Assembly (NCBI GenBank): GCA_022841825.1
Contig: JALHQT010000005.1
Coordinates: 62,001 to 126,000 of the forward strand
DNA: 64,000 nucleotides
Direction: 5' to 3'
From: Anaerolineae bacterium
GTDB taxonomy: Bacteria; Chloroflexota; Anaerolineae; Aggregatilineales; Phototrophicaceae
A model generated the notes under the pieces. The model made no database searches. It was not told the DNA's origin and was given only the letters and a program-made list of their open reading frames with translations. Made by a program: the position numbers and the translations under genes. Within the stretch, counting starts at the first letter, position 1, and each line of letters opens with the position of its first letter. Shown piece by piece: positions 35,603-37,925 of this stretch.

Positions 35603-36643
35603 TTGGCAAACGTCGTCTTCATGGGCACGCCGGACTTCGCGGTGCCCGCCCTACAGCAGCTTATCGCCCACCACACGGTCGTCGGCGTCGTCACACAGCC
35701 CGACCGCCCCGCTGGACGCGGCAAGCAGGTGCAGATGTCGCCCGTCAAGCAAACGGCGCTGGCGGCGAGCATCCCCGTCTTTCAGCCAGAAAAGCTGCGC
35801 CGCACGGAGGCAGTCGAAACGCTGAAGCAGTGGCAGGCAGATGTCTATATCGTCGCCGCCTTCGGGCAGATCCTGCCGCAGTCCGTCCTCGACATCCCCG
35901 CGCATGGCTGCATTAACATTCACGCCTCCCTGCTGCCACGCTGGCGCGGCGCAGCACCGATCCAGGCGGCGATCCGCGCGGGCGACGCCGAAAGCGGCAT
36001 CACGATCATGAAGATGGACGCCGGACTGGACACGGGACCGATGCTCGCCAAACACGCCATCGCGCTCGCGCCCGACGAGACCGGGCAGTCGCTGCATGAT
36101 AAGCTGTGCATCATCGGCGGCGAGCTGCTGATCGAGACGCTGCCGCGCTACCTGCGCAGCGAAATTAAACCACAGGCGCAGGACGACGCACTGGCGACCT
36201 TCGCGCCGCGCATCGAGAAAAACGAGGGGCGAATCGACTGGTCACAGCCCGCCACGCAGATCGAGCGGCTGGTACGCGCCTTCACGCCCTGGCCCGGCAC
36301 TTTCACGACCTGGGAGGGCAGGCTGCTCAAGGTTTTGGAGGGCACGGCAGACGTGACAACGACGGACGCAGCAGAACCGGACGCCATGAATGGCGTCCCT
36401 ACAGCATCGCGCGTAGGGACGCCATTCATGGCGTCCGCTCAATCCGATCCGAACGTGGACATAGGGACACGCAACGCCGACACCTCCCACGGCGAGGTCA
36501 TCCGCCGCCACGACCGCATCGGCATCACGACCGGCGACGGCATCTTCCATCCAACGCGCGTGCAGCTAGAAGGCAAAAGCGCCGTCTCCGTCGACGATTT
36601 CGTGCGCGGGTATGTGGGGTTTGTGGGAGCGAGGGTCATTTAA
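35603..36643 (+). CDS. fmt: Methionyl-tRNA formyltransferase with an in-frame palindromic insertion
   Basis: A 346-residue enzyme formylating Met-tRNA for initiation. It starts at TTG 35603, after GGAGTAAAGGA, giving MANVVFMGTPDFAVPAL at the family N terminus. INIHASLLPRWRGAAPIQ and AGLDTGP hold the catalytic Asn 105, His 107 and Asp 143; MSPVKQTAL is the THF-binding side. The C-terminal tRNA-binding domain (RAFTPWPGTFTTWEGRLLKVLEG ... GITTGDGIF) is interrupted by about 45 extra residues that include DAMNGVPT and VGTPFMAS, encoded by two palindromic elements in opposite orientation. Typical Fmt has 310-320 residues. The insertion sits in a surface loop and the frame is kept. It overlaps the convergent GT2 gene by 8 bp. 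Confidence 0.95.
   Translation: MANVVFMGTPDFAVPALQQLIAHHTVVGVVTQPDRPAGRGKQVQMSPVKQTALAASIPVFQPEKLRRTEAVETLKQWQADVYIVAAFGQILPQSVLDIPAHGCINIHASLLPRWRGAAPIQAAIRAGDAESGITIMKMDAGLDTGPMLAKHAIALAPDETGQSLHDKLCIIGGELLIETLPRYLRSEIKPQAQDDALATFAPRIEKNEGRIDWSQPATQIERLVRAFTPWPGTFTTWEGRLLKVLEGTADVTTTDAAEPDAMNGVPTASRVGTPFMASAQSDPNVDIGTRNADTSHGEVIRRHDRIGITTGDGIFHPTRVQLEGKSAVSVDDFVRGYVGFVGARVI
36379..36436. repeat. Two inverted palindromic elements inside fmt
   Basis: GGACGCCATGAATGGCGTCC followed by CTAC (36379-36402) and its exact reverse complement, GTAG then GGACGCCATTCATGGCGTCC (36413-36436), separated by ten bases. Each is itself nearly palindromic. Both are translated in the fmt frame, as D-A-M-N-G-V-P-T and V-G-T-P-F-M-A-S. 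Confidence 0.95.
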
Positions 36644-37925
36644 TCGTCCGCCCTTTCCAGCGCACCCCGCCGTAGCGCGCCTGCCAGTAGACCGCCTGCG
36701 CCGCGATGCGCGTCATCAGCAGCACCGAAAGCGGCAGCGCCAGCGCGTCGCCAACCCGCTGGCGTGTCGTCGCCGCCGTCAACGCCCGTACGCCCACGCC
36801 CAATGCGCACAACCCCGCCACCCCCAGAATGTGTTGTACGGACGACGCATGCGTCGTCCGCTCGCCCCATCTATTGGCGACATCCCCGATTAACCACACC
36901 CACGGCAGCAGAAACACCGCCCAATGGAAGATCGCCCCCATCAGCAGTCCGAACACGCTGCCGTACCCCGCGATGATGTTCTTGGCGTAGCCATCGCGTA
37001 CGTCCGCCCACGACGTGTACATGCGGCAGCCGATCAACCCCGCGCCGTCCGCCGTGCGCAGCCGCAGACCCGCCCGCTTGATCAGCCGTGCGAACGTGAT
37101 GTCCTCGACGATGCGCTTGCGCACCGCCGCGTGCCCGCCGATATGCGTATATGCCGCGCGCCGGAAGCACAGGCACTGCCCATTTGCTGCTGCCAGCGAG
37201 GCGAACGGCAGGTGATGTACCGCCAGGGCGGGCAGATAGCCGAGGATGACCAGCGCCATCAGCGGCACGACCAACCGCTCACCCCAGGTGATGGTCGTCT
37301 GCGTGGGCCAGACCGTCAGCAGATCTGCGCGTGTGCGTTCCGCCGCCGCGATCAGCGCCGCCACCGCGTCCGGTTGCCAGCGCACATCGGCATCCGTGAA
37401 AACCAGCCACTCCCCACGCGCCGCCTCGCCCAACTGCTGGCACGCCCAGCTCTTGCCCATCCAATCGTCCGGCAGCGACTGCCCCGTCAGCACGGTCAGA
37501 CGTGCATCGCCCGCCGCGCGCGCGATGTCCGCCGTGCCATCAGTCGAGCCGTCGTCGAGAATCAGGACTTCGAGATTTGGATAGGTCTGCGCCAGCAGCG
37601 CGCGAACAGTCTCGCCGATCACGCGCGCCTCGTTGCGCGCGGGAATGCAGATCGAGACCAGGGGAGAATTAACCGCCATGACGCCAGGGATAACAGCAGC
37701 GGCGGATGCCATGAATGGCGTCTCTACCGACGAAGAGTCCTGTAGGGACGAGGCATGCCTCGTCTGTCCTTGTTCCGCAACCCTCTCCGTGAGCCTCCGT
37801 CCCTCCGCGCCTTCGTGTTGAAAGTCCTTCTGCAAGCGCCGGAATGTCAGCGCGTTGAGGATGGCGATCCCAGTGATGGCGACCAGTGCGCTCCCGACGA
37901 CAATTACGATCAGGTCGTGCGCCAT
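36636..37925 (-). CDS. Family 2 glycosyltransferase, CruG-like
   Basis: A 429-residue membrane-bound GT2 enzyme. An N-terminal helix (LIVIVVGSALVAITGIAIL) is followed after about 90 residues by the GT-A domain: LVSICIPARNEARVIGETVRAL, VLILDDGSTDGTADIA, FTDADVRWQPDAVAAL (DxD), then C-terminal helices and IVEDITFARLIKRAGLRL (ED base motif). The order CruF-like, PlsY-like, GT2 in one operon suggests the carotenoid 2-O-glycosyltransferase role of CruG; this is inference from context. Three palindromic elements are translated within it: QTRHASSLQ (about 54-62), VETPFMAS (about 67-74) and RTTHASSVQ (about 357-365), all outside the catalytic core. It overlaps plsY by 16 bp. Confidence 0.85.
   Translation of the reverse strand: MAHDLIVIVVGSALVAITGIAILNALTFRRLQKDFQHEGAEGRRLTERVAEQGQTRHASSLQDSSSVETPFMASAAAVIPGVMAVNSPLVSICIPARNEARVIGETVRALLAQTYPNLEVLILDDGSTDGTADIARAAGDARLTVLTGQSLPDDWMGKSWACQQLGEAARGEWLVFTDADVRWQPDAVAALIAAAERTRADLLTVWPTQTTITWGERLVVPLMALVILGYLPALAVHHLPFASLAAANGQCLCFRRAAYTHIGGHAAVRKRIVEDITFARLIKRAGLRLRTADGAGLIGCRMYTSWADVRDGYAKNIIAGYGSVFGLLMGAIFHWAVFLLPWVWLIGDVANRWGERTTHASSVQHILGVAGLCALGVGVRALTAATTRQRVGDALALPLSVLLMTRIAAQAVYWQARYGGVRWKGRTIK
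36839..36860. repeat. Perfect 22-bp palindromic element inside the GT2 gene (3' part)
   Basis: C, then GGACGACGCATGCGTCGTCC, then G. It is translated on the minus strand as R-T-T-H-A-S-S between hydrophobic segments. Confidence 0.9.
37704..37769. repeat. Two palindromic elements inside the GT2 gene (5' part)
   Basis: GGATGCCATGAATGGCGTCT followed by CTAC (37704-37727) and GTAG followed by GGACGAGGCATGCCTCGTCT and GTCC (37742-37769), 14 bp apart. Two different cores, GGACGCCAT and GGACGAGGC, lie next to each other, in the linker between the N-terminal helix and the GT-A domain. Confidence 0.9.

Follow-up and report, generated by a model that had tools for sequence, protein, structure and literature searches.

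A translated dimer of GTAG-tagged REPs in the fmt gene of an Anaerolineae bacterium, and its probable cognate RAYT

The window analysed here, a stretch of 64,000 nucleotides from an Anaerolineae genome (contig JALHQT010000005.1), carries two inverted copies of a short palindrome inside fmt, the gene for methionyl-tRNA formyltransferase, where they are translated as part of the enzyme. Together they are a head-to-head dimer of GTAG-tagged repetitive extragenic palindromes (REPs), a non-autonomous mobile element of the type known as bacterial interspersed mosaic elements (BIMEs) or REP doublets forming hairpins (REPINs). We consider it highly probable (about 0.86) that this mobile dimer, probably copied by a REP-associated tyrosine transposase (RAYT), was inserted into fmt and is translated in Fmt. 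It is a clean case of a mobile hairpin that adds residues to a core enzyme, with a probable transposase in the same genome. Such cases allow tests of how far essential proteins tolerate peptides derived from mobile elements.

The fmt gene (35603..36643, + strand; 346 amino acids, TTG start as listed) was identified by TIGR00460 (294.5 bits, cut-off 201.5) and by the domains PF00551 and PF02911, and the best solved relative of its product is E. coli Fmt (1fmt, E 9.4e-82). Two arms of 25 nt each (36378-36402 and 36413-36437) are 100% complementary and spaced by 10 nt, and each contains a near-perfect palindrome (GGACGCCATGAATGGCGTCC and GGACGCCATTCATGGCGTCC, respectively) with a GTAG head. The first REP (36379..36402) reads GTAGGGACGCCATTCATGGCGTCC on the - strand and is translated in fmt as DAMNGVPT, the second (36413..36436) has the same sequence on the + strand and is translated as VGTPFMAS, and the linker between them (36403..36412) consists of the 10 nt AGCATCGCGC. 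Two inverted REPs at such a short distance are what characterizes a REPIN or BIME. The frame 35603-36643 is open across both arms, just as an earlier note on this DNA, made from its letters alone, had described two inverted palindromic copies translated within fmt. The pair occupies 58-60 nt and supplies residues 259-278 of Fmt, and its RNA folds with -55.6 kcal/mol as compared to -20.0 (sd 2.7) in 200 shuffled sequences (z -13.0). A search of the whole window against Rfam at gathering thresholds gave 0 matches.

Fmt could be aligned for 29 of 60 relatives, and the REP insert is absent from all 29 of these proteins, one of the two outcomes that the earlier note had expected for homologues. Counted from its own residue 225 to the C-terminal end, the Fmt of the window has 122 residues, as opposed to 81-84 in 27 of the 29 relatives and 86 in the other two. 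The added length of about 45 residues proposed in the note is thus real in kind and somewhat smaller in size, since the excess amounts to 36-41 residues (40 over the commonest length), of which the REP pair supplies only 20. The extra stretch is also not one element, as had been thought; besides the REP pair it contains other added sequence, some of which may be a decayed REP. A candidate for the latter, of another class, lies at 36461..36484 on the + strand (ATAGGGACACGCAACGCCGACACC) and matches GTAGGGACGCGCAACGGCGCGTCC at 18 of 24 positions; this class was picked after the sequence had been seen, and the match is suggestive only. In the alignment with 1fmt the extra stretch corresponds approximately to the segment 250-271 of the E. 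coli enzyme, although the C-terminal second piece of this alignment is weak when taken alone.

The palindrome belongs to a dispersed family, as the earlier note had supposed. The genome of 5.9 Mb contains its 20-bp core GGACGCCATNNATGGCGTCC 75 times, and together with the GTAG head (GTAGGGACGCCATNNATGGCGTC) it is present in 66 copies (32 forward, 34 reverse). The reversed control sequences were found 0 times in both searches, and the abundance of the fmt palindrome is therefore far beyond chance. Among the 60 relatives, 14 belong to the same genus, and 3 of these contain the fmt class, one with 12 copies and two with 1 each; the class is missing from the remaining 11 genomes of the genus and from all 46 genomes outside it. 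Within 857 kb around fmt-class copies, 202 of 439 GTAGGG heads are followed by a hairpin. The rate for 15 control heads ranges from 0.3 to 7% (GTAGAG 1/300, GTAGGC 1/298, GTAGCC 12/372, GGAGGG 9/294, ATAGGG 7/142) and is highest for CTAGGG (2/29). Because the GTAGGG rate is far above those of the control heads, this head defines a REP family. A further 1.2 Mb without a listed fmt-class copy contains GTAGGG hairpins at 57 of 297 heads, which gives a total of 259 in 2.06 Mb, although neither part of this sequence, the first having been chosen for holding the fmt class, is a fair sample of this class. The stems of these hairpins fall into the classes GACGCCAT, GACGGCAT, GACGAGGC, GGCGCAAT, GGCGACCC and others. 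REP dimers in the 857 kb are oriented head-to-head in 38 cases, tail-to-tail in 8 and in tandem in 3. Three hallmarks of GTAG-tagged REPs are found here: a palindrome directly 3' of a specific head, a high and dispersed copy number, and a mainly extragenic location. REP density is uneven, with 4 in C1:1-400000 (GC 56.7%) versus 36 in 380 kb of contig C6 (GC 60.3%). Several lone REPs (L040 2944, L043 9430, L062 9463-9832, and others) directly follow tandem GTGCG-rich heptamers such as GTGCGTGGTGCGAAGTGCG.

RAYT genes were searched with the NCBIfam profile NF047646 (curated cut-off 80 bits). The candidate partner of the fmt element is locus L116 (C5:247949-248398), about 150 kb from fmt. Upstream of this gene are one exact REP of the fmt class and one GACACCAT variant, downstream there is another exact copy, and a translated exact copy lies within the gene itself, 68 nt after the HUH motif. 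Thus, L116 has the same REP class on both flanks and also inside, which is the arrangement of a REPtron. NF047646 is its sole NCBIfam match at E <= 0.001, and the HUH and Y..NP motifs are conserved in the alignment. The nearest named RAYT relatives are Anaerolineae. As the gene is flanked by the REP class found in fmt and holds a translated copy of it, its product most likely moved the fmt element. In this scenario the RAYT would copy the REP dimer by acting on single-stranded hairpins, and the dimer would have entered the loop of the C-terminal domain that corresponds to the E. coli residues given above. The insert may have survived because the 10-nt linker and the register leave the frame open and because the loop bears the added residues, which would then be nearly neutral and leave Fmt a working enzyme.

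Several observations weigh against this interpretation. No empty site from the same species was seen, and the insertion is deduced from the relatives. The 40 extra residues of Fmt are more than the REP pair accounts for, and a structure model of Fmt predicted from the single sequence was uninformative (mean predicted local distance difference test score 34.4) and was not used. L116 scores 57.6 bits, or 65.2 as trimmed, and is thus below the cut-off of NF047646, perhaps due to its own insert. A second RAYT, L222, has the REP class GACGCCATTCTTGGCGTC, which differs from the fmt class by one base, so that the partner is not beyond doubt. Finally, both the transposition and the activity of Fmt are conclusions drawn from sequence.

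Other explanations can be weighed against the same data. The genome encodes four small IS200/IS605-like TnpA proteins, which might have mobilised the hairpin in place of a RAYT, and three GTAGGG hairpins, with stems of other classes, lie 0.8-1.3 kb from one of their genes (L001). However, the hairpins adjoining these genes are of the GTAGCC/GTAGCT kind (L001, L004) or absent (L002, L003), whereas the fmt class adjoins a RAYT. IS200-like TnpA is disfavoured as the mover on these grounds, and we regard its involvement as very improbable. The GTAGCC/GTAGCT hairpins, which were also seen at L088, L091 and L109, are a kind apart from the GTAGGG REPs. As a separate observation, L005 (C2:344211-344540) and its relatives show a weak Y1_Tnp match in a long frame (684-1279 aa) that occurs about once per genome in the genus.

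Errors could plausibly arise at an exact inverted repeat of 25 bp in a single assembly, and fmt could also be dead. Both the open frame of 346 amino acids and the TIGR00460 score far above the cut-off argue otherwise, the six matches in the assembly (95.67% complete) include no second fmt of full length, and similar in-frame pairs are present in other genes of this assembly; an artefact or a dead gene therefore has only a slim chance of being the explanation. The very stable fold would suit a regulatory hairpin that is retained in the fmt mRNA as a useful element in its own right. This is highly unlikely for an element that is lacking in the 29 aligned relatives and whose pair recurs in many unrelated places and genes. 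The earlier note had compared the insert with the palindromic elements of Rickettsia, while correctly stating that the sequence differs. Such elements, which are CGTC-tagged and have no dedicated transposase, are indeed palindromic and in frame inside genes (passages in Di Nocera, 2013; PMC3733652). In fmt, however, the unpaired foot is GTAG and CGTC is part of the paired stem, and the genome contains a RAYT with the same REP class. An element of the Rickettsia type was rejected on the basis of the foot and the transposase link and is hardly credible here; the closest relatives are instead GTAG-tagged REP dimers with a probable RAYT.

The translated REP dimer of fmt is not the only one in this genome. 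With genes called by a purpose-written 4th-order Markov coding-potential caller, 21 of 173 REP clusters lie within genes (4 more at edges), versus 4697 of 9839 randomly chosen positions (161 at edges); an earlier count in the 857 kb had given 14 of 133. This depletion fits insertion followed by the removal of harmful copies. Clusters that have one coding frame on both sides and a stop codon in between number 0, versus 24 random places. Among the host genes are those for large membrane proteins, PhnI, MurJ and an E2 acyltransferase, in which the REP separates the E3-binding domain from the catalytic one. The peptides recur: forward copies mostly read VGTPFMAS-like (GTA/GGG by codon) and reverse copies DAMNGVPT-like (CCT/AC). 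By the GTAG foot, 10 of 12 forward and 13 of 18 reverse copies use these registers (p 0.04 and 0.002, values that ignore the linkage of dimer halves, with one double-footed REP counted on both strands). The preference is weaker in RAYT genes, where forward copies are 39 GTA/G versus 14 (GT)AGG and reverse copies 22 CCT/AC versus 11 CTA/C. Head-to-head linkers inside genes measure 10, 10, 10, 18 and 19 nt, the commonest length outside genes being 12; the lengths in these five pairs would fit a filter for open frames. Locus L069 (5876-10483) contains a frame of 1535 amino acids with several REP-coded peptides (DAMNGVPT, DGMNAVPT, VGTPLMAS and others), and L062 (8589-11072) is alike. A protein with TIR, LysM and FGE-sulfatase domains (L047, 15362-17176) has a REP-coded stretch in a linker.

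The gene adjoining fmt, which encodes a glycosyltransferase (36636-37925, - strand), also contains REPs. In the linker ahead of the catalytic domain, a REP of the GACGAGGC class (37742..37764, + strand) is accompanied by a degenerate partner (37705..37727, - strand; GTAGAGACGCCATTCATGGCATC), and a REP-like palindrome with the altered head GTAC lies in the C-terminal part of the gene (36836..36859, + strand). The linker pair (37705-37764) is missing in 17 of 19 relatives. Of the other two, one has linker sequence without a GTAG hairpin (L286), and the other has a REP of another class (L298). Because the latter orthologue bears a different REP at this place, the linker was probably hit twice, as judged from the sequences compared.

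All 5 RAYTs found in the genome contain an internal REP 54-68 nt after the HUH motif, and this feature extends far beyond this organism. In a set of 90 non-redundant RAYT genes, of which 16 come from the genus and 74 from named genomes, 66 have an internal GTAG hairpin, which in 63 lies 9-38 residues after HUH; as the position scored is that of the REP nearest to 20 residues after HUH, it leans towards that loop. The corresponding numbers are 0-4 of 90 for 14 control heads within the RAYT genes and 10 of 266 for other frames of at least 150 aa at the same loci, these being stop-to-stop frames and not proven genes. The 90 genes were parsed from 110 loci, with 18 unparsed and, by subtraction, 2 duplicates removed. 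The unparsed loci comprise 13 of the genus, which are mostly IS200-like, and 5 from named genomes; among the latter, no fewer than 3 have a hairpin inside the gene or need other rules. Internal and flanking REPs of the same gene are at least 90% alike in 29 of the 37 genes with both, versus 36 of 1887 comparisons across genes. Internal REPs were seen in named genomes of, among others, Chloroflexota, Clostridia, Bacteroidota, Nitrospirota, Desulfobacterota, Cyanobacteria, a Nitrosomonas and Patescibacteria. With a REP in one loop of most sampled RAYT genes, a published remark becomes testable, namely whether this loop is a tolerated landing site or the REP a working part. That selection maintains the internal REP, whether as a self-tag or to let the protein bind and regulate its own gene or mRNA, and that it is not merely tolerated, seems unlikely to us. 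If true, copies such as those in fmt would subject the genes or mRNAs that contain them to the same hairpin-binding protein.

Both kinds of intragenic REP have precedents. According to passages in Di Nocera (2013; PMC3733652), GTAG REPs are known in Chloroflexi, and REPs occur in frame within genes, with tRNA synthetases among the hosts. The fmt element shares with them the GTAG foot, the palindrome, the head-to-head dimers and the mostly extragenic location of the family, and it is likewise in frame, in-frame REPs in that work coding for 20-30 residues. It differs from them in sequences and hosts. The main text of that paper, as distinct from its supplementary gene list, contains neither 'formyltransferase' nor 'fmt', and no paper was found that pairs 'methionyl-tRNA formyltransferase' with 'extragenic palindromic'; we do not claim fmt as a previously unreported REP host. 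Like REPINs and BIMEs, the element consists of two inverted REPs able to form one long hairpin, but unlike them it sits in coding sequence. Like the palindromic elements of Rickettsia it is a palindrome that continues the reading frame of a protein-coding gene; those are tagged with CGTC and have no transposase link, whereas the fmt element is tagged with GTAG and has a RAYT (compare passages in PMC3733652). In-frame REPs within tnpA_REP genes were described by Quentin (2018; passages in PMC6006769). As in the TnpA-Y1 subclass 2.4 described there, the REP lies between HuH and Y with the frame kept in 5 of 5 RAYTs of this genome. Subclass 2.4 has three G-C pairs at the stem base, in contrast to G-C, G-C and A-T in the fmt class, although the GTAGGGGC classes of this genome do have three; the likeness is one of REP features. 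The words 'intragenic', 'inside' and 'within RAYT' are absent from the passages of Nunvar (2010; PMC2817692) considered here, and passages in Corneloup (2021; PMC8266576) treat the biochemistry of REP recognition and show REP cleavage for other RAYTs. Thus, in-frame GTAG REPs and REPs within RAYT genes are kinds already in print (passages in PMC3733652 and PMC6006769), to which this genome adds fmt as a host, a probable cognate RAYT and counts of internal hairpins.
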